A DNA stretch of 28,058 bases from a virus: positions 1 through 28,058 of the IMG/VR virus record IMGVR_UViG_3300032462_001988, one strand, 5' to 3'. Below the pieces are notes generated by a model that worked only from the letters and a program-made list of their open reading frames with translations, did not search any database and was not told the DNA's origin. Below are positions 2,870-27,019 of the stretch, piece by piece. Position 1 is the stretch's first letter, and each line of letters opens with the position of its first letter. A program made the position numbers and the translations under genes.

Positions 2870-3511
2870 TCAATCTACTAGGTCGTCGGCGTTTTCAGAC
2901 ACGGGTATTAATTCATCATCTGGAGAGCCATTTATAGCCAATGGGACCCCCATGATTTCATTCACGATATTCGCCGGTAGCACGCCAGTACGACCCATGA
3001 TTTCCAGCAATTTCCTGGCTTCTGCTTCGGGAGAGAATGAATGGACATTAGACACAGTAATTGCCCCAGACAGAGTGGATCGCACGTCCACCCGAGAATT
3101 CACATCCATTTGAACATTGACATTAGTCTGCTCCATGCCTAGAAGCTTTGTCCGTCTATCCATTATTGCCAATACCTGTTGAATCGCTTTGAAATCCGGC
3201 TCCACTTGTACTTCGTTACCGTCATCCATTGTAACCCTTCTGTGTTGGGTCATTGGCCAAATGGCCGCCTGAAGAGAATCCAGTCTTTCTAGTTCCATCC
3301 GGAGTAGTTCCGGATAGGCCATTAAGGCTTCCGAACTGAAACGCTCTAACTGCCGTCTAACCGCATTAGTAACGGCACGGGTTGACATATTGAATCGTTT
3401 AGCGATCTCTGACTGCGTGACGCCCGCTTGTCTCAGTTTGAATATTCTCGTATCACGCTCTGTTAGGAACTCTTTAGATAATGCTCCGTCGTTCTTACTC
3501 AAACTACCCAA
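2870..3511 (-). CDS. HTH protein, possible terminase small subunit
   Basis: A 213-residue protein. Residues 17-55 contain a clear helix-turn-helix (IFKLRQAGVTQSEIAKRF, then NMSTRAVTNAVRRQLERF). It is followed by a helical region (PELLRMELERLDSLQAAIWPM) and a second helix pair (DFKAIQQVLAIMDRRTKLLGME). The order HTH, ELxRLDxLQxAIWP, RxxRLLGM is typical of small-terminase-like DNA-binding proteins of actinophages. No large terminase is in view, and the gene sits beside the primase-helicase, so a replication or transcription regulator is an alternative. Its start overlaps the end of the primase-helicase by 8 nt. Confidence 0.55.
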   Translation of the reverse strand: MGSLSKNDGALSKEFLTERDTRIFKLRQAGVTQSEIAKRFNMSTRAVTNAVRRQLERFSSEALMAYPELLRMELERLDSLQAAIWPMTQHRRVTMDDGNEVQVEPDFKAIQQVLAIMDRRTKLLGMEQTNVNVQMDVNSRVDVRSTLSGAITVSNVHSFSPEAEARKLLEIMGRTGVLPANIVNEIMGVPLAINGSPDDELIPVSENADDLVD

Positions 3512-11865: not shown

Positions 11866-11870
11866 CCGGA

Positions 11871-11944
11871 GCATCATGTCAGGCTTGAACTGACCGCATT
11901 CAGTTTGGAAAACTGACACTCTACCAACGATGAGTTAATGATGC
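11871..11944 (-). tRNA. tRNA-Gly (TCC)
   Basis: Minus strand, 74 nt. The acceptor stem GCATCAT/ATGATGC pairs perfectly, the D stem is ACTC/GAGT, the anticodon stem TCAGT/ACTGA carries loop TTTCCAA (anticodon TCC, codon GGA), and the T arm is GTCAG-TTCAAGC-CTGAC. The sequence after the acceptor is TCCG, so CCA is not fully encoded. Confidence 0.9.
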
Positions 11945-11951
11945 AAAATTT

Positions 11952-12042
11952 GGAATACCAGCCAGTGCCCGCATATCCACAGCATCCCTTGCGCGGGAGT
12001 ATGGCGACTTTAGCGGGAAAACCAATCACCGGCTGGTACTCC
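11952..12042 (-). ncRNA. Structured tRNA-cluster element of unknown type
   Basis: 91 nt bounded by a near-perfect 16-bp stem, GGAATACCAGCCAGTG at 11952-11967 and its partner at 12027-12042, with a second inner stem CCCGC/GCGGG. It lies between tRNA-Gly and tRNA-Thr in the same strand context. The length is like a class II tRNA but no T-loop TTCGA is present and no anticodon arm can be drawn. It may be a degenerate tRNA, a processing signal or a small RNA. Confidence 0.55.
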
Positions 12043-12076
12043 TAGTCGGTGCGACGCGCATGCCGCACCTCCTTGA

Positions 12077-12148
12077 GCCCGCGAGAGGATTCGGACCTCC
12101 TGTGTCCTCATTACAAGTGAGGTCCTAGTCCCAACCAGGTCCACGGGC
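12077..12148 (-). tRNA. tRNA-Thr (TGT)
   Basis: Minus strand. Acceptor GCCCGTG/CGCGGGC with a T-G pair, anticodon stem CCTCA/TGAGG with loop CTTGTAA (anticodon TGT). The T-loop is TCCGAAT, so the usual TTC is TCC. The D stem is short (CCT/AGG). A fairly good tRNA, with an unusual T-loop start. Confidence 0.75.
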
Positions 12149-12177
12149 ATAAATAGTATACGTATAGATTGTAACGC

Positions 12178-12249
12178 CGACGCGGATGGAGTCGAACCAC
12201 CAACCCTCTGCACTTCACACAGATGCTCTGCCGTTTGAGCTACACGCCG
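12178..12249 (-). tRNA. tRNA-Phe (GAA)
   Basis: Minus strand, 72 nt. Acceptor CGGCGTG/CGCGTCG pairs with two G-T pairs, D stem GCTC/GAGC, anticodon stem TCTGT/GCAGA with loop GTGAAGT (GAA), T arm GGTGG-TTCGACT-CCATC. G37 in place of the usual A is odd. Confidence 0.8.
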
Positions 12250-12253
12250 TTTG

Positions 12254-12324
12254 GGTGACCAGTAGGAATCGAACCTACGTGACGGGGACCACAACCCCGC
12301 GTTCTGCCATTGGACTACAGCCAC
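12254..12324 (-). tRNA. tRNA-His (GTG)
   Basis: Minus strand. Acceptor GTGGCTG/TGGTCAC with C discriminator, anticodon stem CGGGG/CCCCG with loop TTGTGGT (GTG), T arm GTAGG-TTCGATT-CCTAC. The C73 discriminator is the expected histidine identity base. Confidence 0.9.
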
Positions 12325-12330
12325 ATACGT

Positions 12331-12402
12331 CGGGGTGGGTGGTCTCGAACCACCGGCCTCCTGGTCCCAAACCAGGCGCGCTGCCAACTGCGCTACACTC
12401 CG
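12331..12402 (-). tRNA. tRNA-Pro (TGG)
   Basis: Minus strand. Acceptor CGGAGTG/CACCCCG has one A-C mismatch at the fourth pair. The anticodon stem CCTGG/CCAGG carries loop TTTGGGA (TGG), T arm GGTGG-TTCGAGA-CCACC. D stem GCGC/GCGC. Confidence 0.88.
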
Positions 12403-12413
12403 TTATTTTTCGT

Positions 12414-12485
12414 GTCAAGAGAGGGAGTCGAACCCCCATCGCTAGTTCCGTAAACTAGCATTCTCGTCCATTGAACTACCCTGAC
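12414..12485 (-). tRNA. tRNA-Arg (ACG)
   Basis: Minus strand. Acceptor GTCAGGG/TCTTGAC, D stem GTTC/GAGA-type, anticodon stem CTAGT/ACTAG with loop TTACGGA (ACG, reading CGN after A-to-I editing), T arm GGGGG-TTCGACT-CCCTC. Confidence 0.88.
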
Positions 12486-12490
12486 TTAGT

Positions 12491-12561
12491 GGCGGAAGTG
12501 GGAATCGGACCCACTACATCCGAGTTATGAGCCCGGCGAACTACCAATGTTCTATTCCGCT
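12491..12561 (-). tRNA. tRNA with CAT anticodon (Met or Ile2)
   Basis: Minus strand, 71 nt. The anticodon stem CCGGG/CTCGG carries loop CTCATAA (CAT). The T arm is GTGGG-TCCGATT-CCCAC, so TTC is again TCC. The first acceptor pair is an A-C mismatch (A1, C72), a feature known from initiator tRNAs with reversed bases, but the three G-C pairs at the anticodon stem bottom are absent. Elongator Met, or Ile with lysidine, cannot be separated by sequence alone. Confidence 0.85.
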
Positions 12562-12600
12562 CTATCAGCATAACACCAAGAGGAGATAATAACAACTTGG

Positions 12601-12653
12601 GGTGGGGTAGGGGGGTCTAGACCGACACCCTCCTCGGGCACCGCACCCCCCAC
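12601..12653. other. GC-rich hairpin within tRNA cluster
   Basis: A 53-nt segment closed by GGTGGGG at 12601-12607 and CCCCACC at 12647-12653, with an internal palindrome GGTCTAGACC. It lies between two tRNA-type elements, and its size (53 nt) is too small for a normal tRNA. It might be a remnant tRNA or a transcription terminator for the cluster. Confidence 0.45.
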
Positions 12654-12661
12654 CCGTCCGT

Positions 12662-12726
12662 GAATGTAATGGGAATCGAACCCAACCCCTACGAGTGCCC
12701 CGAGAGGGATAGCCACCTATACGTTC
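12662..12726 (-). ncRNA. Degenerate or non-canonical tRNA-like element
   Basis: Minus strand, 65 nt. The 3' side looks like a tRNA: T arm TTGGG-TTCGATT-CCCAT followed by TACATTC, which pairs with GAACGTA at the 5' end (one C-A mismatch), then TA as usual at positions 8-9. The middle is only 32 nt, about 7 short, and no standard D and anticodon arms can be drawn, although CCCT/AGGG may pair. It could be a decayed tRNA or one with reduced arms. Confidence 0.45.
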
Positions 12727-12729
12727 TGG

Positions 12730-12801
12730 CACCGATGAGAGGAGTCGAACCCCCGACGCGCAGTTTTGGAAGCTGCCGTTCTACCGTTGAACTACACCGA
12801 T
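12730..12801 (-). tRNA. tRNA-Trp (CCA), probable
   Basis: Minus strand. Acceptor ATCGGTG/CATCGGT with G discriminator, D stem GTTC/GAAC, T arm GGGGG-TTCGACT-CCTCT. The anticodon arm GCAGC-TTCCAAA-ACTGC reads CCA (Trp) with a C-A mismatch at the stem top. Shifting the arm would give TCC (Gly), but needs a 9-nt loop, and the G73 discriminator favours Trp. Confidence 0.75.
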
Positions 12802-12826
12802 GCATTCACTATATCAGTAAATTGGA

Positions 12827-12908
12827 GGAACGAGTGGGATTTGAACCCACGGGGCGCTAGCCCGTTGCCTTAGCAAGGCAGTACCTTAAACCACTCGGTC
12901 ACCGTTCC
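12827..12908 (-). tRNA. tRNA-Ser (GCT)
   Basis: Minus strand, 82 nt, class II with a long variable arm (CGGGCTAGCGCCCCG). Acceptor GGAACGG/TCGTTCC, anticodon stem CTGCC/GGCAA with loop TTGCTAA (GCT), T arm GTGGG-TTCAAAT-CCCAC. Length and variable arm fit serine. Confidence 0.92.
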
Positions 12909-12916
12909 ATTTTTAA

Positions 12917-13621
12917 CTATATCAGAGAAGACGTACTGATCCTATATCTATTTCGCAGGGTGGCACTTATTTTCGCCCTGTGTTCAGGAGATAATACTCT
13001 CCCCTTGTGCGCTGCGCCTATTTTTGCCCGATGCTCTGGTGACTTTGGTTTCCCCAATCCCGCAGCACTCATTTTGGCCCTAGCTTCCAGCGAGGGCTTT
13101 ATCCCTAAATGCCCAGCCCCAATTTTTGTCCGATGCTCAGGCGACTGTACTCTCCCCAATCCTGCGGCGCTTATTTTAGCTCTGGTTTCTGGCGAGCGCT
13201 TATTCCCCAATTGTGCGACTCTAATTTTTGCCCGATGTTCAAGCGAATGTACTCTCCCTAAATTTGCGGCACTCATTTTCGCACGTGCTTCAACAGAATG
13301 AATGAATCCAATGACGCCATCACCACCGTCTGTCATATTTGTTAAATCATACCCGACACTTTTATAATGAGCAATATGGAAAATCTCTCTTTGGCCAGAC
13401 TCCCCCCATGAAAGCCCAGATTCTAAAACCAAACTCACTATTGAGCCTCCTTGTTTGAGAACACTCCTAATCCAATTATTTTTATGACCTAAATTTTGAC
13501 TATTCCGAGCCAGGAATAGATGTTTACCCAACCTATTTCCGGCGGTATCCAATTTAGAACGACCGACATAACGCACTATATCTGGAGCGAGAGACGAGGA
13601 TAACGCATACACGCAGGCCAT
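12917..13621 (-). CDS. GIY-YIG homing endonuclease with NUMOD3 repeats
   Basis: A 234-residue protein. The N-terminus has the GIY-YIG signature in its variant form (VYALSSS at about 4 and YVGRSKL at about 18), with R30 and a probable catalytic Glu in the following helices (SGQREIFHIAHY, about 76-87). From about residue 110 there are six tandem NUMOD3 DNA-binding repeats of the form SxEARAKMSAAxLG / SPEHRAKIGAAHKG, each about 17 residues. It probably nicks or cuts a specific target and spreads with its flanking DNA. It is free-standing and inserted between tRNA-Ser and tRNA-Arg. The repeat number may be variable. Confidence 0.88.
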   Translation of the reverse strand: MACVYALSSSLAPDIVRYVGRSKLDTAGNRLGKHLFLARNSQNLGHKNNWIRSVLKQGGSIVSLVLESGLSWGESGQREIFHIAHYKSVGYDLTNMTDGGDGVIGFIHSVEARAKMSAANLGRVHSLEHRAKIRVAQLGNKRSPETRAKISAAGLGRVQSPEHRTKIGAGHLGIKPSLEARAKMSAAGLGKPKSPEHRAKIGAAHKGRVLSPEHRAKISATLRNRYRISTSSLI

Positions 13622-13643
13622 ATATGAACTATATCATTATCGT

Positions 13644-13715
13644 GCGCCCGAAGGGAATCGAACCCCCGACACGCAGGGTAGAAACCTGCTGCTCTATCCA
13701 CTGAGCTACGGACGC
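13644..13715 (-). tRNA. tRNA-Arg (TCT)
   Basis: Minus strand. Acceptor GCGTCCG/CGGGCGC with one T-G pair, D stem GCTC/GAGC, anticodon stem GCAGG/CCTGC with loop TTTCTAC (TCT), T arm GGGGG-TTCGATT-CCCTT. The stop codon of the HNH gene upstream lies inside its 5' acceptor strand (13706-13715 overlap). Confidence 0.9.
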
Positions 13716-14158
13716 GATGAAGAACATGCAAGAGATGCCGATCTATTAGCAGCTTTTTTACACGTAAGGCATATGCGCCACGACCTGCCCTTATAGACAT
13801 ATACACGATGCCCATCTATTTCAAAGGAGTGACCGTGCTTGCACCTTTCCTGCTTTTTATTAGCTGCGCACTGTCTGCCCTTCTTAATCATATCCTGCAT
13901 GTTGTCGGTTGCGGTTCCAACCCATAAATGATCTGGATTTACACAATTTCTGACATCACACGAGTGACAGACATGCATCCCATCCGGTATCTCTCCTTTG
14001 TGGATTTTGTAAGAATGTCTATGGGCACTAACCGATTTGCCGTCTACCCTAAATACACCGTATCCCTGTGTGGCAATACCCCCGGTCCACAACCAGCAAG
14101 AATCTGTTTTAAGAACCTTTTGGAAAAACCTGTCTTCTAATGACATGTGCTTAGACAT
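13706..14158 (-). CDS. HNH endonuclease (HNH_3 type)
   Basis: A 150-residue protein with the HNH_3 layout: CWLWTGG at about 21-27, YGVFRVDGKSVSAHRHSY (33-50), then GMHVCHSCDVRNCVNPDHLWVGT (60-82), containing the Cys/His zinc and catalytic His residues, followed by NMQDMIKKGR. The last third has C-x-H-G-H and CLTCKKAAN, a second zinc-ribbon-like motif. It is probably a free-standing homing endonuclease. The last codons SSSRP and the stop run into tRNA-Arg, so the gene may have been inserted right against the tRNA, or its C-terminus was acquired from the tRNA end. Confidence 0.85.
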   Translation of the reverse strand: MSKHMSLEDRFFQKVLKTDSCWLWTGGIATQGYGVFRVDGKSVSAHRHSYKIHKGEIPDGMHVCHSCDVRNCVNPDHLWVGTATDNMQDMIKKGRQCAANKKQERCKHGHSFEIDGHRVYVYKGRSWRICLTCKKAANRSASLACSSSRP

Positions 14159-16405: not shown

Positions 16406-16713
16406 CGGGACTCCTGAGTACAACACGGATAGGCGTTGTCTAAAACGAGCGCTCGGATTGTGAGAGTGTACCGACGGCCGGGCGCCGACGATTTTTGAAC
16501 TTTGGTGCACGAACGAAGCCGCAGGCGAAGTGAAGCGACGAAGGAGCGAGTGCGCAAAGTGAGAAAATGGAGTAGCACAGCCGTCGGGGAGCGAGCGCAT
16601 ACGAGATAGCGAGTTTGCTTCGCCACTAACTATTCGGGACTCCCCAACGGACACGACTCCAGGGGCGTATGGCGTTGGTTCCGATGCTCGTAGCGAAGTA
16701 TGAGCGAAGATAT

Positions 16714-16963
16714 CGGGAACATAAGCCTACGCCTTCCCATAGAGAAGATTGCGGAAAGTCAAAGCGTGCCAGCTGAAGCGAATGAGCGAAGCGAGAGAGC
16801 AAGGGTAGTTTTTTCAAAAGTCGGCGGAGCTTTCGGAAATGTTTTGAGCGACGCAGGAGCGGGAAGCAGTGGTTTTCTGCGCAAACATTTCAGAATGCGG
16901 GGGAGCACTTTTGAAATAACCTGGTTAGGGCTTTGGGTTCCGTAATCGCAGACATATAACAAT
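16714..16963 (+). ncRNA. Array module, type C (pair with 18535)
   Basis: Shares with the module at 18535 the segments GAGAGAG-CAAGGGTAG plus a T-run, then GCGACGCAGGAGCG and GGGGGAG-type blocks, in the same order and at similar distances from the box, with the intervening sequence changed. The box here reads CGGGAAC, the only such variant. Confidence 0.6.
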
Positions 16964-17127
16964 CGGGACTCTGGAGTGCTCCGTCTCCGGGGATAGCATT
17001 TTCTTTGCGGACGCGTACTGCGTAGCGCTGAAGTACACGGATCCGCAGGATCCAGCGAAGCGTGTTTACTTCGTGCGTAGCTTACGCGGGGAGCAAAAAA
17101 TGCGGGGAGTCAGTGGTCTAAAACATT

Positions 17128-17379
17128 CGGGACTAGGAAATAGTGGCGCGAGCCCCCCGCTCGCGACGGGTGCGCACCGCGCATCCCGTAACGGACATTT
17201 ATAGTAACCGGGATACCTAGGCGTAAGACTAATAGCCCAGAGTAAAGAAATCCGATTGAGCGTAGCGAAGGCGTGATTTCGTGGTTCCAGGTGCTAGGGC
17301 TTCGGTAAGCGAAGCGTCCGACGGCGTAGTACCGGGAAACTCTGGGATATTCGGATTAGGCCGCGCCCTATCGGGTAGT
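17128..17379 (+). ncRNA. Array module, type A (pair with 18159)
   Basis: The hairpin CGCGAGC (17147-17153) with GCTCGCG (17159-17165) is matched in the module at 18159 by CGCGAAC/GTTCGCG, so a G-C pair is replaced by A-T. The next hairpin GGGTGCG/CGCATCCC becomes GGGAACG/CGTTTCCC. The two modules then share TTTATAGTAACC, GTAAAGAAATCCGA and GTGATTTCGTG in the same order. Compensatory changes on both sides argue for a conserved RNA fold. Confidence 0.75.
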
Positions 17380-17601
17380 CGGGACTCGTGAGTGCCGGGA
17401 CTCCAGCCATAAAAGAGTGTCCGTATGGCAACTGTTGATCGGGTAGCGCAACGCCGACATTTTTTGAGTGTTGTTTTCGCACCGAAGTCGGAGACAAGGT
17501 GAGCGACGAAGGAGCGTCAAAGCAACACGGTGGAAATGGAGAAGATAGCGTCACGAGAGACAGTTGACTACGGATACGGTTAGTTGTTATCCCAATGTAT
17601 T

Positions 17602-17788
17602 CGGGACTAGGTAGTTCATGATGAGGGCCGCCCTTGTGGCGGGCCGATTAAGGAAACTATCCGATCACAAACTCGTATCTTTTCTTGCGATGACTGGCAG
17701 CGAAGCGTCATCGCCGAGTGCGCAGCGGTACGAGCGATGTGCGGAGCGTAGAGTCATAAGCAAAAAAGTACGGTCAGTTGTTCACATT
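17602..17788 (+). ncRNA. Array module (pair with 17956)
   Basis: Near the 5' end the hairpin CCGCC-CTTGT-GGCGG (17628-17642) is matched at 17982-17996 of the other module by ACGCC-CTTGT-GGCGT: same loop, same position, one pair changed from C-G to A-T. Both are followed by GCCGATT and, further on, by ACGGTC before the next box. Confidence 0.7.
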
Positions 17789-17955
17789 CGGGACTCTATA
17801 GTAGTTGTAGTTGACACCAACACGACAGCCTTTTTTTGCGGACAGCACGGCAGCGTAGCATCAACAGAGCAAGGCCCCCAGGGCCTAGCGAAGCGGTGCG
17901 AATGTTGTGCGCAGGTTCCGTGGTGGAGCACAAAGGGCGGGAAGCCGTTTACATT

Positions 17956-18158
17956 CGGGACTCGGGAGTTGTTAGTGAGGGACGCCCTTGTGGCGTGCCG
18001 ATTGAAGTAAAGTCCGCAATCACGAACTAGTGTCTTTTGTGCGTTGCGACACGCAGTAACAAAGTACATAAGCCCGCAGGGCTAGCGAAGCGGTATTTAC
18101 TTTTTGCGTAGTGGTCGCATAAGCATAAAGATACGGTCGATCGTTATTCAACATAGTG
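17956..18158 (+). ncRNA. Array module (pair with 17602)
   Basis: Second copy of the type described at 17602, with the compensatory ACGCC/GGCGT stem. The middle region holds GCCCGCAGGGCTAGCGAAGCGG, also echoed in the module at 17789 (GCCCCCAGGGCCTAGCGAAGCGG), so parts are exchanged between types. Confidence 0.65.
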
Positions 18159-18413
18159 CGGGACTAGGGAATAACAGCGCGAACCCCTAGTTCGCGACGG
18201 GAACGCACCGCGTTTCCCGTAGTGGAAGTTTATAGTAACCAGGGTATTCAGGCATAAGACAAATAGGCTGAAGTAAAGAAATCCGACCGGGCGAAGCAAG
18301 GGCGTGATTTCGTGATTTTTCGTGCAGCGGTGCCCGTAGGAGCGTAGCGACAAGGGGGCCAGCGTGCGAAAAACTTCAGGGTATTTGGATTACGCCGTAA
18401 CTTGTAAGATAGT
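18159..18413 (+). ncRNA. Array module, type A (second copy)
   Basis: Homologue of the module at 17128: stems CGCGAAC (18178-18184) with GTTCGCG (18190-18196), loop CCCTA, then GGGAACG/CGTTTCCC. Five modules separate the two copies, so duplication was followed by divergence or insertion. Confidence 0.7.
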
Positions 18414-18534
18414 CGGGACTCAGAAGGGCGAGACCTATAGCAACCCGTTGTTGCGATGCGCCCGCTTAGTGGCAGCGTACTGCGAAGCGGGAGCGCCGCG
18501 GCGCGGTGGGCGAGCTGACACGGGTTGCGATAGA

Positions 18535-18777
18535 CGGGACTATCTAGTTGAAACTAGATTATCGAGTAATCAAAGTGTGCTCGCCGAAACGAACGAGCAA
18601 CGCGAGAGAGTAAGGGTAGGTTTTTAAATATTCCGGGGGAAACTATGTTTGTTATTTCTAGCGACGCAGGAGCGAAGAGCAGTGTATTTCTGCGTAAATA
18701 ACAAAATAGTTGGAGGAGAAATATTTGAAAAGCCAGCAAACACTTTGGTGCGAGGTAATCGTCATTGTTATTGAAGT
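18535..18777 (+). ncRNA. Array module, type C (second copy)
   Basis: Contains GAGAGAGTAAGGGTAGG plus T-run and GCGACGCAGGAGCG like the module at 16714, in the same order. ACTAGATTA-type pairing right after the box differs from its partner. Confidence 0.6.
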
Positions 18778-19144
18778 CGGGACTAGGTAGTGGTCCTTGC
18801 CGACCCCGGGTGGGACTTCCGTTAAGTTGAGAACCGGCAGTTTGAATAATTGAGCGAAAGACGTAGGCGCACCGAAGAGCCGCAGGCGATGAGGTAGAGC
18901 CAATTAATCAAACGAGAGGGTCCGACTTGACGGAGTCCCAAATTGAAATTCCCCAGTTTGTAAATCATTAGATTCGGGACTATAGAGTTACATTGAGAGT
19001 AGGGAGCAAGCGGGGCGACGCATAGCGTCTGACCCGTGTCTTGCCGGGCGTAGGTTCCGAACTAGTGCGAAGCACGGATTCGGAGACGGAGCCGGCAACG
19101 TGCGAAGTACACGAGATGTAATGATGATGTTAGGGATATTGCTA

Positions 19145-19454
19145 CGGGACTTGTAAGCGGGAACCAGGCGTCGTTGGGCAATTGTCGTTCCATTGGCTTT
19201 GGGGTTCGCACGCGGAGGGAGCGGCATCAGCACACGGTTCTATGTCCTGCGTGCCGAAGAAAGCGAGAAGCCAGGTTTGGAACGTAGTGAACAAACTGGG
19301 CGCTAACGAAGTTATCGAGCCTGAGGCATACGCAGGACATAGACGTACCGCGAATACAACGTGTGAGTGGCGTGTGATGCGGCAGCGTACGTGCGTGGGA
19401 GCCCAAGCCTGGAAGGACTTGCCGAAAACGCGCCGTAAGATTTGTTTTATTGAT
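19145..19454 (+). ncRNA. Longest array module, with 14-bp long-range stem
   Basis: TCTATGTCCTGCGT at 19239-19252 is exactly complementary to ACGCAGGACATAGA at 19330-19343, and the pairing extends by GCC/GGC past a two-base bulge. The 77 nt enclosed hold a second stem, CCAGGTTT with AAACTGG. At 310 nt it is the longest module. Confidence 0.65.
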
Positions 19455-19709
19455 CGGGACTCAGTAGTACAGGACACGATAATCGGCAGATTTGGCGTGT
19501 TGCTCAGCCGGAACTCGTTTGGTGTTACGCGAACGAGCGAGATTTACGCGCCGGGGCTGATTTTTCTAAATCAGCGTCCGAATGGCGTAGCCATTTCGGA
19601 AGGTGCTGTAAATCGACGTGACTGAAGCTGTAACTTCAAACGGTGTAGGCGTGGCAACATAGACGAAGATGGCGTTATTGGGTCCGCGAACATTACAGTA
19701 ATGCCGATA

Positions 19710-19869
19710 CGGGACTAAGTAGCCGGGAACGGTGATACGGCTGTAACAAAATTGAGTAGTGTCATTTCGGCGCTCCCCCCGTCCTAACGCCTTGCGATGG
19801 GCACATCGCATTGGCGTTACGGCGCCAAATTACACGGGTTAAAGTTTTCTGCAACATGGCTCACATGGT
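19710..19869 (+). ncRNA. Array module with strong central hairpin
   Basis: TAACGCC (19785-19791) pairs with GGCGTTA (19813-19819), and inside it GCGATG (19794-19799) pairs with CATCGC (19804-19809) around GGCA. The module at 20583 has an analogous arrangement, GATGCGC/GCGCATC around GTTGGC/GCCAAC (20667-20698), with no sequence in common. Confidence 0.6.
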
Positions 19870-20582
19870 CGGGACTAGGGAACCAGGTTGTTTATGTCCA
19901 TTCCCAAATGAGGTTAAGCGTCCTGCGTTGCGTGAGCGGGTCGTCAAAGAGACAGAACCGTGTAGCGAAAAACGCTGCTAGCACAACGTGCGAAGCAAAG
20001 TTGTGCCTTGCAAGCGTAGCGAACACGGTTGGTGGCGATTTGACGGGAAAGCGAAACGCACGCAGGGAGCGGTACCTATTTGGGACGGACTAAGCAACCG
20101 TGAGTTGTTAGGGGCGGGACCAGGAAGTTCTTTGTCGGTTGTGCTGGTCGCCAGAAGCGAAAGACGTCCAGTAAGCAAGCGGGGGAGCCATTTTTCTGGC
20201 GTTAGCCGGGCTTGGAACGTAGTGGAAAGCAGGGCGTTACGCTCAGACAATGGATCCGGTAGCGTCACGAGGCTGTTGTGTGCAACAGGGGAGTGTGCTT
20301 CTGGATAGTTTTCGCGTCTTGGCGTCGGCACCGATTGTTCATTAAAAGTCGGGACTAGAAACTAGATGCTCCGCCTCTTACGATGACCTTGGTCGGAGAA
20401 CGAGCCTTTTATTTATTTACGGAGAGGAGCCCGGGCGCAACACCAAACAAGCATTGGAGCGTACGCGAAAATGCCGTTTGGCTCAGCGGTTTTTGCTGAA
20501 GTTGCGCTCTGGCACCCGTAGTGAATACATAAAGGTGAGGGCGGAGACCTCGGTCAGAATAAGGGCGGGCATCGGAAGATTG
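19870..20582 (+). ncRNA. Array block E-F-G, first copy (three modules)
   Basis: Modules at 19870 (E), 20115 (F) and 20350 (G) recur in the same order at 20869, 21116 and 21355. E shares GTTGTGCCTTGC and AGCGTAGCGAACACGG; F shares GAAGTTCTTTGTC, CGCCAGAAGCGAA, AAGCGGGG and GGAACGTAGTGGAA; G shares the hairpin TCAGCGGTTTTTGCTGA (20483-20499). An E stem GCACAAC/GTTGTGC becomes GCACGAC/GTTGTGC, which keeps pairing through G-T. Confidence 0.7.
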
Positions 20583-20868
20583 CGGGACCAGGAACCAGAT
20601 GGTTTTGTTTTTTATGCGGACAGAAGCCACTAGCGAGCATTTCATTTTTTACGGTAGGGATGTGCCGATGCGCTGGTTGGCATTGCCAACGGCGCATCAA
20701 GGATCCCGCGTACAAAATGACTGCGAGCGGCGTGGCGGTTGTCGGAATAAAAACAGACCATCGGAAAGAAATCTCATCGGGACTATGAAGCGGTCTAGAT
20801 TGCTAGACGAAGCATCTTGATCTACCGGCCGCCGTGGGGCCGGGAGTCAGATGCGTGATTTGTACTAT

Positions 20869-21793
20869 CGGGACCCACTAGTGCTAGTTCTTTTTAGTTA
20901 GCGAGCGGCTTTCGTGGAGCAACTGGTTCCGACGAACCGATGTGTAAAAAGGCAAAAGCGTGTAGCGGAAAACGCGTGGCGAGCACGACCGTGCGCAGCA
21001 AGGTTGTGCCTTGCTAGCGTAGCGAACACGGTTTATGGCGCATTTACACTAAAGGGAGGCGGACCGTTGCGACACGAATGTAGACGAGGTGGCTAAAAGA
21101 ACGGGGATTGTGATTCGGGACTATGAAGTTCTTTGTCATTTCGGGGCGCCAGAAGCGAAGTTATCCAGTACGCAAGCGGGGGGGACATCTGTCTGACGCA
21201 AGCCAGGCTTGGAGATGACGTGGAACGTAGTGGAACGTGGCGGAAAGCCGGCGTAGCGGCAGAGAGTGGCTCCACTAGCGGTAGCATTCTGAAAGGATGC
21301 GTATGTGTCTGGATAACGCCGTGCCTTGGCGCAACGCGAACCAGTAATAAAACTCGGGACTCTAAAGAAGAGATGCTCATTCTTTATGCCGATCCCGCAC
21401 GCGAGCGAGGCTTCGGCATTGCTTGCGAGGGAGTTTCTGACAAGGAAAGAAATCCATTACAACGTAATGTGATTTCTATCAGCGTTTTTTGCTGATGGAC
21501 TTGTCAGGAGCGGACGTGGCAAGCAGAGCCGAGCCGACCGGCGGTAGGGATAGGTATAAGATGAGCGTCGGAAAGTTGAAACAGCGGGACTAGAAACCAG
21601 ATGGTCTGTCTCTTGGCATCACCAGTAGCTGGCGTGCGGAGCATCAATTTTATTTGGGGTCAACTAACTAAACTGACTGAAGCGTAGCGGAATGTCAGTT
21701 TCATCAGCGGTTTTTGCTGATGGTTGGCCGCGGATAAAATGGCGCGTAGCGTCGCCGAGCGATGGTGAAGACAAGGACGACTGTCTGGTTTAT
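20869..21793 (+). ncRNA. Array block E-F-G-G, second copy
   Basis: Modules at 20869 (E), 21116 (F), 21355 and 21585 (both G). The G hairpin TCAGCG-T-run-GCTGA lies at 21479-21495 and 21704-21720, at 124 and 119 nt from their boxes compared with 133 nt in the first copy. Two other modules (20583, 20778) separate the two blocks. A segment of three modules was therefore probably duplicated. Confidence 0.7.
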
Positions 21794-22419
21794 CGGGACT
21801 AATAAGTTGACCTTTGGCGCAAAGGGGCATTCGTTTGATTTTACCCGTTTGGTGTAGCCAGAATTCCGCCGAATGAACTGAGCCCGCCGTGCAGCCGCTT
21901 CGGCGCACGGTTCCAGGGCCGCAGGCTCTTGGAACGAAGGAATGGGGCGGTTTCTGGCGGTACCGAGAGGGTAAGTCAACGAATGACTTGCATTTGACAT
22001 TCGGGACTAATAAGTGATGTCTCCAAGCAATGTAGTAGGGCATTTCGTTTTGTGAAACCCGGGGGGCAGAGCCAGGGTGTGGTGAGCGAACTAAGCCTGC
22101 TGCGCGGCCGGGTGCGGCAAGCGCGGTTTCATGGCCGTAGGCCACTGAAACGAAGGAAGTGAACCACTGCTGGCGTTGCCCGAAGGGTTACACAAACGAA
22201 TGGCCGCGACTTGGGTTCGGGACTAGTAAGTCAATTGTCGCCGGGTCAGTACTGCAACCCAGCTATTTCGTTTATGCGACATGGTTCTTGCGTAGCTCCG
22301 TGAGTGAGGGACTCATACCCCCCGTGGGTATGAGACACATGACCGCAGGGCATTGTGGCGAGCGAGCGGGTGAAGCAAGCGCGATGTCGCAAGAAACGAA
22401 CAGCGGTGACTCGGTGCGT
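21794..22419 (+). ncRNA. Array triplet, type H (three modules) with covarying long stem
   Basis: Modules at 21794, 22002 and 22218 each close with a long-range stem starting TTCGTT and ending AACGAA, but with different sequence beyond: TTCGTTTGATTTTACCC (21830-21846) with 21969-21983; TTCGTTTTGTGAAACCC (22044-22060) with 22185-22200; TTCGTTTATGCGACAT (22267-22282) with 22384-22400. All three pair almost fully. Two also share a hairpin followed by GAAC or GAAAC plus GAAGGAA, with stem bases changed together. This is the clearest covariation in the window. Confidence 0.8.
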
Positions 22420-22743
22420 CGGGACTGCATTGTCCTGGGTTGTATTTTCTCCAGCTTTTTTACCGGTGCCGCTCGAACGCCGCGATGCCTACTCCGTATC
22501 CAGAAAAGGGTTTTCTAGTCCTTTGCAGATTGGGCATTTCTCGGTTCGTACCGGGTATTGTTCCGTTAATCCGAATATCGCTTGATAAAGGCGATGGTCG
22601 CGACGGTGTGACTCAATTTCATTCTTTGGCATCAGTTATCCTTTCCCCGTAAGGGTTTAGAGTGGATTGTTGTTATTACCTGTAGTGTGCGTGTAGGGTG
22701 TGACAATTCCGAAAAAGTAAACATCCGCCAAAAGAGGACGTCT

Positions 22744-22983
22744 ATGGGGCAAACTATTATGATTATGAGTAAATTCCACCTAGTCAGCCAAAAGCATGAG
22801 AAATGGATTTGTCCACGCTGCGAAGAGACATTGGAAACAGGTGTACCTGTGGCAGAGGCAACTTGTAATAATCGCAAAAGCCATTCAGCCTTGTCCATCC
22901 AGATGCACTTAATGTTTTCTCATTGGGCACTAGACCACGGCGGTCGGGAAGCGAAGGCGTATGTAAAGGGAGCGACGGAATAG
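22744..22983 (+). CDS. Small C2H2-like zinc-finger protein
   Basis: 79 residues from the ATG at 22744 (AGAGGA 5 nt upstream). CPRC at 23-26 and a downstream H55-x4-H60 (MHLMFSH) form a C2H2-like pair, with C41 and H47 between them. Basic segments (NNRKSH) flank it. It could bind DNA or RNA. It is the first gene after the array, and the related element E1 begins 9 nt past its stop. Confidence 0.6.
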   Translation: MGQTIMIMSKFHLVSQKHEKWICPRCEETLETGVPVAEATCNNRKSHSALSIQMHLMFSHWALDHGGREAKAYVKGATE

Positions 22984-22991
22984 TTGGAATT

Positions 22992-23117
22992 GAGTCCCGA
23001 CTCGCACAACTCTACCCGTTCCCCAGTCTCACCCGTCGGGATACCCCTCCCCCCCATACGGCGGGACTCCAGACCACATTTTCTATTTGCAAAATAAAGT
23101 CGACGGTGGCGGATGAC
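22992..23117 (+). ncRNA. Intergenic element E1 (AGTCCCG ... CGGGACT ... GACGGTGGCGG)
   Basis: GAGTCCCG at 22992-22999, CCCCAGTCT near 23023, the array-type box CGGGACTCCAGACC from 23062, and CGACGGTGGCGGATGA at 23101-23116. The AGTCCCG and CGGGACT can pair locally. Two relatives lie at 26477 and 26913 with the same order and similar spacing (35-42 nt from box to the 3' block). It sits between two plus-strand genes and could be a leader or trailer RNA, or an unlinked array module. Confidence 0.65.
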
Positions 23118-23204
23118 CTTCTTCCAGGAAATTAAAGCGCCGCTAAAGCAGACTTTATTCCCTTAGGGGTTGTAAGGGACAGGGGGCGACCATAGGATGT
23201 CCGT

Positions 23205-23438
23205 ATGAACGAACCAACGAATGAAGTTACTGAGGCGATGAAGGCGATTGGCGAGGATTGGGCCACCCGTACTATGACTATATATGCCGCTGCGAAAGTT
23301 CTTGAGGCCGAAGTGAAGCGGCTACAAGCACGAAACGCCGCGCTAGTTACTGGGTACGGTTTCTTGTTTGGCGAGAATGAGCGGCTAGAGGCGGAAGTGG
23401 AACGGCTAGAGGCACGAAACGCCGAGCACCCCGTATGA
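23205..23438 (+). CDS. Coiled-coil protein
   Basis: 77 residues. Residues about 28-75 show a heptad pattern with Leu/Val/Ala at a/d positions (AAKVLEAEVKRLQARNAALV, then ERLEAEVERLEARNAEHP), a parallel coiled coil with an RLxARNA repeat. TAGGAT 6 nt before the ATG suggests a leaderless start. Element E1 lies about 90 nt upstream. The stop overlaps the next ATG as ATGA. Confidence 0.65.
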   Translation: MNEPTNEVTEAMKAIGEDWATRTMTIYAAAKVLEAEVKRLQARNAALVTGYGFLFGENERLEAEVERLEARNAEHPV

Positions 23439-23647
23439 ACATCGCGACGGTGATGCGTGACGCCCGGGCGAACGAGTGTTTGCCCATCAGCCGCTGGCGA
23501 CTTCACAGCCCCTGTTTCTTTATCCGCCGACTCGACCTTATGATTCATGTAATACTCCCTGAGCTCATTGCTGGCGTCCTGCCGGGCATAACGGCCTACC
23601 TCCGCAGGACATCGCCCCGTTGGGGTCGCTCTTGGCGGGCTTGGTGA
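23435..23647 (+). CDS. Small protein with one hydrophobic segment
   Basis: 70 residues beginning in an ATGA overlap with the coiled-coil gene. Residues about 35-57 (LMIHVILPELIAGVLPGITAYL) are hydrophobic enough for a single membrane span, with a basic C-terminal tail (RRTSPRWGRSWRAW), so the N-terminus may be outside. This could be a holin- or antiholin-like protein. The first half is less convincing, so overlap-driven coupling is the main support. Confidence 0.45.
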   Translation: MNIATVMRDARANECLPISRWRLHSPCFFIRRLDLMIHVILPELIAGVLPGITAYLRRTSPRWGRSWRAW

Positions 23648-23735
23648 TATATTACAAACTTTATGTTGCTTTCCATGCAGACTTGGCATAGTCTGCCCAT
23701 ATGGATACAAAGTCTGCATACCGTGGAGATGTCAA

Positions 23736-23966
23736 ATGACGGCCGCCATGATAGGCACTGATGTCATGGCGATTCTTAAAGAACTGCTGAAGAGCCATCA
23801 GGATGTGTTGGAGATGTGCGGCGAGGTAACAACGATTAGCGCTATCGACCACTCGGCTTTTGTCGAGCAGGCAACGCGAATCGCCGGCCGGAACCGCGAA
23901 GACATACAACGGCAAAAAGTTTTAAACAAAGAATTCCGAACGTTTCGGCGCAAGGAGATGAGGTAA
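23736..23966 (+). CDS. Small helical hypothetical protein
   Basis: 76 residues from ATG, with GGAG about 8 nt upstream; a second Met at residue 5 is an alternative start. It is mainly helical (VMAILKELLKSHQDVLEMCG) with a basic C-terminus (REDIQRQKVLNKEFRTFRRKEMR). It lies just before the ATPase gene, and may be its partner. No family recognised. Confidence 0.6.
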   Translation: MTAAMIGTDVMAILKELLKSHQDVLEMCGEVTTISAIDHSAFVEQATRIAGRNREDIQRQKVLNKEFRTFRRKEMR

Positions 23967-23970
23967 CCCA

Positions 23971-23994
23971 ATGAATCAAAAGGAGCTCTTGTGA
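23971..23994 (+). other. Seven-codon upstream frame before the ATPase gene
   Basis: ATG at 23971 opens MNQKELL and ends in TGA at 23992-23994, overlapping the GTG start of the ATPase gene as GTGA. It contains the AGGAG site of that gene. It may control initiation there, or be chance. Confidence 0.25.
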
Positions 23995-24626
23995 TTGTTT
24001 GCTTTTCGGTAAAAGGTGGAAGCGGTACCACCGTGGTTTCCGCCGCGCTCGGAGTGATGCTTGCGGGCCGTTCAGATTCCGGTGCACGAATTGTCGACCT
24101 AGCCGGCGACCTACCGGCCGCGATGGGCATGGGCGAACCAAAGGGCCCAGGGGTTTCGGACTGGCTGATGTCGCAGGACGATGCCGGCATCCTTGAGGAT
24201 CTACTAGTCCCCGCCAACAACTCACTCTCGCTGATCCCGCTCGGTAGCAAGGAGCTCGACGACCTAGCGCGTTACGAATCGCTTGCGAAGGCATTGACGA
24301 ACATGTCGGTACCTGTCGTCGTCGATGCCGGCAGCGGCGCATGTCGCTCACCGTTCGTTGATTACGCCGATGTTTCATACCTCGTAATCCGGCCGTGTTA
24401 CTTGGCGCTGCGTCATGCCGCTGCGCTCAAGCAACCACCCACCGGCATCATCTTGATTTTTGAAGAAGGCCGCGCGCTCAATAAAGCTGATGTTGAGGCT
24501 GTTGTCGGCGCGCCGGTGATCGCCGAAATACCTTACGAGTCTGCGATCGCACGCTCGGTCGACGCCGGTCTACTCGCAGGACGGCTGCCCACCACGCTGG
24601 GCCAACGACTCGCGGTAGCGGTATGA
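23991..24626 (+). CDS. MinD/ParA-like ATPase, GC-rich
   Basis: 211 residues from GTG, AGGAG 5 nt upstream. The N-terminus CFSVKGGSGTTVVSAALGVML carries a deviant Walker A (KGGSGTT) of the MinD/ParA type; VVVDAGSG (about 108-115) may act as the Walker B strand and IPLGSKELDDLARYE follows a switch-like segment. The protein lacks the C-terminal amphipathic membrane helix of MinD. Codons are much richer in GC at third positions than in neighbours, suggesting recent gain from a high-GC host. Its role is open: partition, polar placement, or a TadZ/CpaE-like protein. Confidence 0.7.
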   Translation: MIVCFSVKGGSGTTVVSAALGVMLAGRSDSGARIVDLAGDLPAAMGMGEPKGPGVSDWLMSQDDAGILEDLLVPANNSLSLIPLGSKELDDLARYESLAKALTNMSVPVVVDAGSGACRSPFVDYADVSYLVIRPCYLALRHAAALKQPPTGIILIFEEGRALNKADVEAVVGAPVIAEIPYESAIARSVDAGLLAGRLPTTLGQRLAVAV

Positions 24627-24856
24627 GCGACACGGATATTATTTTTGAAATGCGCGAGGAAGCCAAATGGCTTGTCGATTTGGGCGAAGCCCCTGCAATG
24701 TCACAAACGGTACAGCGATGGATTACTGAAGTAGAACGGCTCCGGGAACAACTCAATGACGCCACATTTGTGAACTTTTTATTGAATGACGAGTTAAAGC
24801 TGTTGAAAGTGGATTACGACGAATTATTAACAAAACAAACAGGAGACACGAAATGA
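24623..24856 (+). CDS. Small acidic helical protein
   Basis: 77 residues, starting in an ATGA overlap with the ATPase gene. Mostly helical with a possible coiled coil (VQRWITEVERLREQLNDATF, then DELKLLKVDYDELLTKQ). Coupled with both neighbours by ATGA overlaps. Function unknown; a link to the ATPase is possible from gene order. Confidence 0.6.
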   Translation: MSDTDIIFEMREEAKWLVDLGEAPAMSQTVQRWITEVERLREQLNDATFVNFLLNDELKLLKVDYDELLTKQTGDTK

Positions 24857-25314
24857 AACTTGCAGAACAGATACAATTTGCCTACGAAAATTTATCTGGA
24901 GAGAGTCCGGATCCATTTCACCTTGGCAAAGCCCGGCTATTCACAATGACTGGGGACGAGATCAAAACACTCGGCTTTTACGGCGACGCGTACGACGGGA
25001 TAGATGAAGTCTCCCATATCAGTACCCCTCTCGGCAAATACGACCTACTGGGTGTTGAGACATGCGGGTGGGCAGCGCCAATGCATCCGGATGTACCGTT
25101 TGATGGGTCACCAAGCGAACACCCGCTGAGGCGCCGGGTCCGGCTCGTCACTGGAATCGATCACAATCTTGAAGTGGCCAGCGCTATGCAGTTTGCAGAT
25201 GAAACCAAAGATGTAGAAGTAATGCTTGGTGGCTCTGGTGCGCTTGCGGAGCAATTGAAGATGGCGATGCTAATCATAATGGCCAGGGCCATATTTGAAA
25301 TGGATAATGCATGA
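24853..25314 (+). CDS. Hypothetical phage protein
   Basis: 153 residues of alpha/beta type, with AYENLSGESPDPFHLGKARLF near the start and MLGGSGALAEQLKMAMLIIMA in the last third. No catalytic motif recognised. It is embedded in a chain of overlapping genes (24623-25923) that are presumably translated together. Confidence 0.65.
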   Translation: MKLAEQIQFAYENLSGESPDPFHLGKARLFTMTGDEIKTLGFYGDAYDGIDEVSHISTPLGKYDLLGVETCGWAAPMHPDVPFDGSPSEHPLRRRVRLVTGIDHNLEVASAMQFADETKDVEVMLGGSGALAEQLKMAMLIIMARAIFEMDNA

Positions 25315-25604
25315 AGACAAAACTTGCGCCGACTGCAATCACTCTTACTTTAAACAATCTTGAATTCGCCTGGTACGGCGGACCATACTGTGAGATTTTC
25401 CCCAAACGTTGCAAAATCCCGTTTGCGGTAATCAATGTATGGGACTACGCATTGGATGTGCCGCGAATTGGCAAATTATCCGATAAAGGAGTTGCCGATA
25501 AATTGGTAGCAGAATGCCGCGAATGGATCGAGACCGAATTCCCTGATTGGGTTACTTCCGGCGAACTTGATCGTCACATCCAGCGCTATAACAAAGGAGA
25601 ATAA
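25311..25604 (+). CDS. Hypothetical phage protein
   Basis: 97 residues. Strand-rich start (TAITLTLNNLEFAWYGGPYCEIF) and a helical end (DKLVAECREWIETEFPDWVTSGELDRHIQRY). It overlaps the gene before it by 4 nt (ATGA) and shares one base with the next (TAATG). Function not recognised. Confidence 0.6.
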   Translation: MKTKLAPTAITLTLNNLEFAWYGGPYCEIFPKRCKIPFAVINVWDYALDVPRIGKLSDKGVADKLVAECREWIETEFPDWVTSGELDRHIQRYNKGE

Positions 25605-25870
25605 TGAGTACTAAAATCGGTTATGTCGTTAACACGATTAACGGCAATTCAATTCCTATTGAGTCAGTTTTGGTTGTCGGTTTCGGTGACGGCACCGCCG
25701 CGTACGACAAAAGCAATGGTCTGCGGTATGGCCCAGACAAACACATGCTCGTATTGGGTGCGGACGAATCCCGACCAGAAGTAATGCAACATCCGGCATT
25801 TTGCGTAAAGATGATAACCAAAGCATTAGCCACGGGACAACCCCTAGCCAAAATCTGGAGTGCCTTATGA
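25604..25870 (+). CDS. Hypothetical phage protein
   Basis: 88 residues, beta-rich start (IGYVVNTINGNSIPIESVLVVGFGDGTAAY) with a short helical end (VKMITKALATGQPLAKIWS). Follows an AAAGGAG site in the previous gene end. Its stop overlaps the next ATG (ATGA). No family recognised. Confidence 0.6.
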   Translation: MSTKIGYVVNTINGNSIPIESVLVVGFGDGTAAYDKSNGLRYGPDKHMLVLGADESRPEVMQHPAFCVKMITKALATGQPLAKIWSAL

Positions 25871-25923
25871 TGGACTATCTTGCGCTATTTTTTGTAGTCA
25901 TATTTTTCGTGGCGATAAGTTAA
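25867..25923 (+). CDS. 18-residue membrane peptide
   Basis: Frame MMDYLALFFVVIFFVAIS, starting in an ATGA overlap with the gene before it. It is one hydrophobic helix with a single acidic residue near the front. It resembles the 22-residue peptide at 11797 in size, in its position as last gene of an operon, and in lacking its own ribosome binding site. It overlaps the end of the minus-strand gene at 25920 by 4 nt. Real translation is plausible but unproven. Confidence 0.4.
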   Translation: MMDYLALFFVVIFFVAIS

Positions 25924-26108
25924 AACAACGTGTCCATTTCAACGACTTCTTTTCCTTGAACGCAAATCCGATGACCGTACATGAATAAGTCCACGGCCTG
26001 TATTACGCCCGACGACGAGCCACAGGGAATCCACGCCCGGACAAGTCGCATTGTGGATTTATTGCTTATGTCCACGGGGTGTTTGCAAAAATGGCATACA
26101 TAAATCAC
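25920..26108 (-). CDS. Small Cys/His protein, leaderless on minus strand
   Basis: 62 residues from GTG at 26108. It starts MIYVCHFCKHPVDIS with C5-x2-C8 and H10, and has WIPC at about 27-30 and H46, so it may bind zinc. On the minus strand TAGTAT (26115-26120) is followed by 6 nt and then the GTG, an arrangement the same as three plus-strand leaderless genes. It is the only minus-strand gene in the right third of the window and is convergent with 25867. Confidence 0.5.
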   Translation of the reverse strand: MIYVCHFCKHPVDISNKSTMRLVRAWIPCGSSSGVIQAVDLFMYGHRICVQGKEVVEMDTLF

Positions 26109-26114
26109 TGTTAC

Positions 26115-26120
26115 ATACTA
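26115..26120 (-). promoter_or_regulatory. -10 box (TAGTAT) of leaderless minus-strand gene
   Basis: Minus-strand TAGTAT, then 6 nt and GTG at 26108. Its complement lies next to the AGGAGG site of the divergent plus-strand gene at 26134, so the two transcripts start back to back. Confidence 0.45.
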
Positions 26121-26133
26121 GGAGGTCTTACCG

Positions 26134-26328
26134 GTGCCAGTCAATACTAAAGAGCAGAAAGCTGCAAAGCGGAAAATCTACGAGCGAGAGCGCAAAAACC
26201 GTAAGCGGGTTGAGGCATACAGCCGTCTTCGGGAGCCAGAACGCTCACGGAAACTAGCAACCAACGCTCTGCGCCGCTCCTATAAGATGCGTCACAAGAA
26301 ATATGACGACTCAGGTCGTCTTCTATGA
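26134..26328 (+). CDS. Small, highly basic protein
   Basis: 64 residues from GTG, AGGAGG about 7 nt upstream. Almost all helical and strongly basic (KEQKAAKRKIYERERKNRKR; NALRRSYKMRHKKYDD). The pattern resembles the basic arm that precedes a zinc motif in some HNH and recombination endonucleases, but no Cys or His pair follows. Nucleic-acid binding is likely; nothing more can be said. Its stop overlaps the following ATG (ATGA). Confidence 0.65.
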   Translation: MPVNTKEQKAAKRKIYERERKNRKRVEAYSRLREPERSRKLATNALRRSYKMRHKKYDDSGRLL

Positions 26329-26453
26329 CCGACGAAGAGGTAACCGCTGTCACTGTGGCATTGGTCGAGTTCTGGTTTGCCCCGCGCCCTCAACCAATGG
26401 TTATCCAAGATACAACATGGCGTTTTAGCAATCGCTGGTGGCCCGCTAGATAA
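26325..26453 (+). CDS. 42-residue Trp-rich protein
   Basis: 42 residues, beginning MTDEEVTAVTVALVEFW in an ATGA overlap with the basic protein and ending WRFSNRWWPAR, with five Trp. An acidic helix is followed by a Pro-rich turn (APRPQP) and a basic aromatic tail. No family known. Coupling to the upstream gene supports expression. Element E2 follows 24 nt after its stop. Confidence 0.5.
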   Translation: MTDEEVTAVTVALVEFWFAPRPQPMVIQDTTWRFSNRWWPAR

Positions 26454-26476
26454 AAGTAAATACAATTCCGAGTATG

Positions 26477-26627
26477 GAGTCCCGCCCCGACTCCCAGCGC
26501 CTCTGAAGGCCGACATCTCGGCCATCTGGTTCGCCTTAAAGCCCCGCCCCCAGTCTTTCCCCCAAAAGAGCCCCTCGGGACCGCGTAGCGCTTCCCGTGC
26601 GGATTTACAGCGACGGTGACGGATGAG
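26477..26627 (+). ncRNA. Intergenic element E2, related to E1 and E3
   Basis: GAGTCCCG (26477-26484), a hairpin GGCCGA-CATC-TCGGCC inside, CCCCCAGTCT near 26548, the box CGGGACCGCGTAGC from 26576, and CGACGGTGACGGATGA at 26611-26626. Order and spacing match E1 and E3, with one base changed in the 3' block. The CGGGACC arm pairs with GTCCCG upstream. Confidence 0.6.
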
Positions 26628-26660
26628 CTGCCCACGTCTACACGTGCGAATCCTTCGCTA

Positions 26661-26709
26661 AAACAAAATGTGAGATTCTTAAACTTTATTTTGTTTGGGG
26701 TTGTTTTTT
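26661..26709 (+). terminator. AT-rich hairpin, possible terminator
   Basis: AAACAAAAT (26661-26669) pairs with ATTTTGTTT (26688-26696) and is followed by TTGTTTTTT. The stem is AT-rich, so termination would be weak. It closes the transcript after E2. Confidence 0.35.
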
Positions 26710-26751
26710 AATGTGGGCTTCTATATATTGGCATTAACCCTAGGGGGCACT

Positions 26752-26865
26752 ATGACCAGAAGATGGTTAGCGCCGCCAGACTACCGAAAGGATGTCTGGC
26801 GGCGCTTTTATATTCCCCGGCAGCCTTCAGAAATGCTTTTACATCTGGTTGAATCGTCAAGCTGA
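26752..26865 (+). CDS. 37-residue frame containing a terminator hairpin
   Basis: ATG with a strong AGGGGG 5 nt upstream opens MTRRWLAPPDYRKDVWRRF and ends LVESSS. The hairpin at 26769-26806 lies within the coding sequence, so translating ribosomes would disrupt it. The basic, Trp-containing start is reminiscent of a regulatory leader peptide rather than an enzyme. It may control readthrough to the gene at 27148, or be a chance frame over a terminator. Confidence 0.4.
   Translation: MTRRWLAPPDYRKDVWRRFYIPRQPSEMLLHLVESSS
26769..26811 (+). terminator. Rho-independent terminator
   Basis: AGCGCCGCCAGAC (26769-26781) pairs perfectly with GTCTGGCGGCGCT (26794-26806), 13 bp with a 12-nt loop, followed by a T-run. 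The strongest terminator in the window. It overlaps the short frame at 26752. Confidence 0.85.
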
Positions 26866-26912
26866 AGACGCGCCGGTAAAGTTCTTAGAATAAATCCCCC
26901 AGGCAAAGACTG

Positions 26913-27019
26913 TAGTCCCGCCCCGGTCTTTTTCTCTGCCTTCTGCCCCGTGCGGGCGTGCGGGACTGCCGAATCCTTATTTTTTACTCTTCGCGTTACC
27001 GGCGACGGTGGCGGATGAC
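26913..27019 (+). ncRNA. Intergenic element E3, related to E1 and E2
   Basis: TAGTCCCG (26913-26920), CCCCGGTCTTTTT, GCCCC..GTGC..GGGC hairpin, the box CGGGACTGCCGAAT from 26961, and CGACGGTGGCGGATGA at 27003-27018. TAGTCCCG is the exact complement of the commonest array box CGGGACTA. It lies about 130 nt before the gene at 27148; the stretch 26866-27147 has no credible gene otherwise. Confidence 0.65.

Follow-up and report, generated by a model that had tools for sequence, protein, structure and literature searches.

Why does a short box that recurs throughout a large structured array of a phage genome return in three intergenic elements close by, joined there to an anti-box and to a third conserved motif? 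The question is raised by the window, i.e. the whole stretch of DNA that was analyzed, a 28 kb IMG/VR viral fragment (28,058 nucleotides). As the window encodes a WhiB-like regulator, the host of the phage is probably an actinobacterium; the label "freshwater" is one that we infer from the metagenome series of the relatives. Elsewhere, the window contains a primase/helicase-like gene (3504-6269) with a LAGLIDADG-like domain that is probably an intein, ten tRNA genes clustered on the minus strand (11868-13715), an HNH endonuclease gene close to this cluster (13706-14158), and short tandem repeats with the unit GCGAGGCTCTAGGCGAGGCGTGA at positions 1-90.

All three elements are on the plus strand and have the order that the earlier note had described, namely an anti-box AGTCCCG, a box CGGGACY and a 16-nt block. 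E1 (22993-23116) is located just past a small plus-strand zinc-ribbon gene (22765-22983), which comes after the array; its anti-box (22993-22999) begins 10 nt past the zinc-ribbon stop and may pair locally with the box CGGGACT at 23062-23068, and its block CGACGGTGGCGGATGA at 23101-23116 is exact. E3 (26914-27018) is built likewise, with the anti-box at 26914-26920, the box CGGGACT at 26961-26967, and an exact block CGACGGTGGCGGATGA at 27003-27018. In case of E2 (26478-26626), the box is also present, as had been claimed, but it reads CGGGACC (26576-26582), and a second anti-box, AGCCCCG at 26540-26546, which was missing from the earlier note, lies closer to it than the AGTCCCG at 26478-26484; the block CGACGGTGACGGATGA at 26611-26626 has one mismatch (GTGACGG). 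As read from the sequence, E2 and E3 follow small plus-strand reading frames. The distances from box to block, counted from start to start, are 39 nt (E1), 35 nt (E2) and 42 nt (E3) and agree with the range given before. The spacing between the box and a following A-V-Y triplet (ACC, AGC, AAT) is kept in all three as well, but among the window's relatives only 1 of 11 element boxes has this spacing. On the plus strand, AGTCCCG occurs only at 22993, 26478 and 26914, so that the array is indeed devoid of it; the other 29 matches in the window are reverse complements of array or element boxes.

Are these elements peculiar to one phage? A search of other phages for the block together with the box, which the earlier note had proposed, found 64 IMG/VR stretches, many of them with 2-3 copies, and 124 distinct box-plus-block elements were counted. 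A scan for the block only gave 69 stretches, many of which are expected by chance according to our own estimate, with repeated matches in several contigs. Among 173 non-redundant copies, the block consensus is sharply limited to 16 nt, YGACGGTGRYGGAWGA, and no fixed signal follows downstream. Among 74 non-redundant blocks from 14 contigs, 55 have the box, as CGGGRCY, at most 60 nt upstream, as compared to about 6% at random, and 28 have an anti-box within 170 nt; the contigs were picked through block or box-plus-block patterns and include relatives that are not independent. Most relatives have the box variant CGGGGCT, whereas CGGGACT is typical of the window's group. Bacterial genomes, searched over 257 Gb, contained just 7 matches to the box-plus-block pattern, scattered across unrelated phyla. 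No relevant mention of the block was found in the open-access literature, the element was not found in annotated phages at megablast sensitivity, and no Rfam covariance model matched the array or the elements in the window or its relatives, so that a known RNA family was rejected. E1 to E3 belong to an apparently undescribed family of dispersed intergenic repeats in many lake actinophages.

A further property of this family is its fixed orientation. In 24 whole contigs, all 129 copies of ACGGTGRYGGAWGA lie on one single strand within each contig, and a reversed-pattern control in the same 24 contigs gave 0 matches. In the window, the 16-nt block is found three times with up to 3 mismatches, as compared to 0.17 expected by chance, and together with the one-strand counts and their control this rules out a chance origin of the pattern. 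The strand is kept irrespective of the surrounding genes, as same-strand elements adjoin plus- and minus-strand genes alike (assigned by a rough gene caller). The elements are placed between gene units, and homology between related phages (G001, G014, G018 and L009) breaks at block edges: G014 holds two gene units at a site at which G001 and L009 have one each, and at a second mosaic site a gene differs in its 3' part, with the difference ending precisely at GACGGTGGCGTATGA, although many such breakpoints could simply arise from the block being the sole conserved stretch.

What connects the elements to the array? The array (16406-22608, plus strand, roughly 6 kb) lies beside ssb and consists of structured modules of mostly 160-250 nt with about 30 boxes of the form CGGGACY-N4-A-V-Y; its last module terminates in GCGACGGTG at about 22600, as noted before. 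Homologous arrays exist in L074, L078, L089, L093, L100 and L104, and further arrays in L046, L094 and L110. The relatives' arrays occupy the equivalent place, with the order array, zinc-ribbon gene, E1 and promoter-like site, and the region preceding the window's array (14.9-16.3 kb, ssb included) aligns to the region preceding theirs. Flanking genes are about 70% identical between the window and its relatives, and the arrays do not align; the box with its spaced triplet is nevertheless kept, in 26 of 30 cases in the window and in 15-21 of 21-29 in the relatives. The plus strand of the arrays folds better than the minus strand by 11-15 kcal/mol per 200 nt, a difference to which base composition contributes, compensatory changes are seen in 114 of the 1023 consensus pairs of homologous modules from the relatives' arrays, and insertions or deletions of modules stop at boxes, which may in part come from conservation being limited to these motifs. 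Furthermore, GCGNAGC occurs 78 times on the plus strand and 7 times on the other strand of the arrays of the window and its relatives, i.e. with an about 11-fold bias. Single-stranded DNA mini-hairpins of this motif were rejected, as its flanks are unpaired and it does not form a hairpin apex. The variable A/G letter of the element box tracks the letter found in the remaining same-strand boxes of its contig (rho 0.65 among relatives that are not independent of each other; opposite-strand control 0.43). That the letter follows the array points to a single viral factor reading the box in elements and array alike.

Near the box, inverted repeats are frequent. In the relatives, AGYCCCG is found at most 120 nt upstream of a box 42 times, about tenfold above the 4.3 expected, and 18 nt is the favored spacing. 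The local hairpins envisaged in the earlier note do form in E1 (GAGUCCCG/CGGGACUC) and E3 when these are folded alone, with stems of 8-10 bp (10 bp in E3, with the box at 26961), but not in E2, and in a longer E1 segment a different fold wins. Covariation does not back the pairing of anti-box and box itself, as their variable positions are uncoupled; the outer flanks of anti-box and box pair slightly more than shuffled sequences (p 0.01), the inner flanks not above them. In other elements, the box is instead part of a strong hairpin, whose loop holds it at the 3' side: among 75 non-redundant elements that have no anti-box nearby, 15 have such stems with a score of at least 25, as compared to 0.9% after permutation. 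A general rule that hairpin loops hold the box at their 3' side was not seen in the arrays and is true for part of the elements only. In L094 and L123, which belong to the CGGGGCT group, an additional box hairpin (AGYCCCG...CGGGGCT) precedes the element box by 217-219 nt and recurs in several separate units with differing intervening sequence.

If a factor reads these sites, the small zinc-ribbon gene that separates the array from E1 is a candidate for encoding it. A profile of its protein matched in 14 of 25 mostly fragmentary records (13 strong matches, 1 weak) and did not find it in the other 11. All records with strong matches, the window included, have a same-strand block just after or overlapping the end of the zinc-ribbon gene, which in G018 is the variant GACGGTGGCGTATGA. 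Searches of IMG/VR seeded with the protein gave 13 loci, 2 of them in contigs new to the set, and in all 13 a block is found at most 124 nt from the end of the match. Blocks that adjoin the zinc-ribbon gene are frequently without a box. In L046 (about 4080-4115), the block is itself part of the zinc-ribbon coding sequence, at its 3' end, and is translated in frame as TVVDD. No Pfam family reached its cut-off with the protein, the weak matches being zinc ribbons, and none of the solved structures was significantly similar.

A family of fixed strand, placed between gene units, linked to the zinc-ribbon gene and sharing its box with the array could be explained by a composite, oriented cis element of cassette borders that is read by a phage factor common to the array, and we tentatively prefer this explanation with a confidence just short of even. 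Its parts would be an optional anti-box or hairpin, then the box CGGGRCY and, after a linker of about 10-43 nt, the 16-nt site YGACGGTGRYGGAWGA. Block and/or box would be recognized, in elements and array, by a factor that the phage encodes and for which the small zinc-ribbon protein is the simplest choice, and a local hairpin may present or strengthen the box. Wherever cassettes border on each other, the site could then serve, at the level of DNA or RNA, as a regulatory or insulating boundary. As all copies are direct repeats, they would in addition offer short homology for the shuffling of accessory genes. Binding, boundary function and the role of the zinc-ribbon protein as partner are what we infer from these arrangements. 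A wider version is rather unlikely to hold as a whole: a two-part phage system, in which a giant modular structured RNA with up to about 30 box units and strand-fixed border elements are both read by one zinc-ribbon protein, which would tie the RNA scaffold to gene expression and to the shuffling of cassettes. In large actinophages, the accessory regions are packed with small unknown genes, and a widespread oriented border element, tied to one gene and to a very large structured array, gives a handle on their organization, regulation and exchange. One protein and one 16-bp site are named, both directly testable, and a common binder of array and elements, if it exists, would define a new type of nucleic-acid system in phages.

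What alternatives exist for such a border element? It could be a transcribed RNA signal, i.e. a terminator in the 3' untranslated region, for example a Rho-dependent one, or a small RNA, which we consider not very probable. In the window, all three elements do come after plus-strand genes, the stretch from anti-box to box in E1 and E2 is rich in C (46-49%) and poor in G (16-19%), and in the relatives a promoter-like site comes after E1. However, in other phages the strand is unchanged beside minus-strand genes, the composition outside the window's group is 31% C and 29% G and thus lacks this bias, and folding of the element gives no clear strand difference (plus minus minus strand only -1.4 +/- 0.8 kcal/mol). 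Intrinsic terminators, i.e. a hairpin followed by a T run, were not found at E1 to E3. Promoter-like sites flank the element and point outward on both sides, those of the minus strand being most frequent at 150-200 nt upstream of the block (22 as compared to about 4 expected) and those of the plus strand raised in number from 0 to 175 nt after it; upstream of the element, plus-strand sigma70-like promoters are not enriched, and an independent small RNA was rejected for this reason. The block is no promoter -35 region either, as no fixed -10 follows over 173 blocks, although a few blocks do suit such a role, namely those beside some zinc-ribbon genes and those in L054 and L122 that abut TTGACA. 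Tandem repeats of the GTGTCGGGCGTCACAC type lie between the minus-strand promoter-like site and the element in L121 (about 4150-4400) and on the reverse strand of L009 (about 2750-2900), and possibly are the operator of another regulator.

It is improbable that the elements are polar replication, packaging or partition signals whose strand is fixed by a one-way fork or motor. Such a signal would agree with a block strand that is independent of gene direction, and a ParA-like gene lies near E1, with a similar gene beside blocks in L054, but in long contigs (138-174 kb) the copies are confined to about 3-19 kb, and a range of at most about 20 kb is unlike the genome-wide distribution of Chi or KOPS. 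Slightly more doubtful still is that the elements serve site-specific recombination of cassettes, in the manner of integrons or otherwise, and that the hairpin is the folded single-strand substrate. Sites of one orientation indeed lie between small genes of either orientation, as in integrons, with units of about 700 bp that border at blocks. Against this, none of 12 records, those of 138-174 kb included, contained a tyrosine or serine recombinase (the integrase family PF00589 was found in 0 of 12 records, which may be fragments), short-homology recombination accounts for the breaks, and the conserved motifs of the elements presumably differ from attC core sites.

Finally, it is very improbable, and not supported by the data, that the anti-box pairs in trans with the boxes of array RNAs and makes the elements regulated targets akin to anti-repeats: anti-box and array box are complementary over 6-7 nt and the arrays are structured and strand-specific, but the elements themselves contain the box, oriented as in the array, an anti-box is lacking within 130 nt in 81 of the 124 elements with a box, the anti-box letter fails to follow the array letter, and the variable positions are uncoupled (anti-box C/T versus box A/G: C/A 20, C/G 13, T/A 6, T/G 4). 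The window's nearest relatives mostly have AGCCCCG as anti-box though their element and array boxes are CGGGACT. The earlier note had named two observations that would speak against its proposal, namely blocks without a box and drift without matching change, and both were made: 19 of 74 non-redundant blocks have no box within 60 nt, and drift occurs, albeit in the anti-boxes. The link of the elements to the array is therefore better explained by the common box than by pairing in trans.

Among known systems, CRISPR-like anti-repeats are complementary to the array repeat and covary with it, which is not the case here. The large phage ncRNAs GOLLD and ROOL (PMC12286853) resemble the array as large structured sequences associated with phages and lakes, but the array has no Rfam match and is made up of recurring modules that contain a short box. 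Conserved boundary sequences that are discussed for phage mosaic junctions (PMC3029335) also provide short homology at module borders, whereas here one conserved composite family is tied to a specific gene and an array. PeSL promoter-stem-loop cassettes of T4-type phages (cited in PMC4503421) are likewise repeated intergenic stem-loop elements in gene-shuffling regions; they contain an early promoter, whereas our elements have promoter-like sites at variable distance only. Cluster O mycobacteriophages have 17-bp palindromic repeats in more than 30 dispersed copies, many of them intergenic like the blocks and about a third within genes, and recombination between copies gives deletions (PMC4351075). 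Unlike the blocks, these sites are symmetric and without an array, and they have no sequence in common with them. Also comparable are the SAS/ESAS elements of Cluster K mycobacteriophages, an asymmetric 13-bp repeat of unknown function and mostly uniform orientation, about half of whose copies have inverted repeats, separated by a spacer that varies, in front of them (PMC3203893). Both are asymmetric actinophage repeats with inverted repeats upstream and largely one orientation. SAS, with no sequence in common with the block, is located at translation starts and follows gene direction (PMC3203893), whereas our elements ignore gene orientation and often lie at 3' ends, and their box recurs in a structured array.
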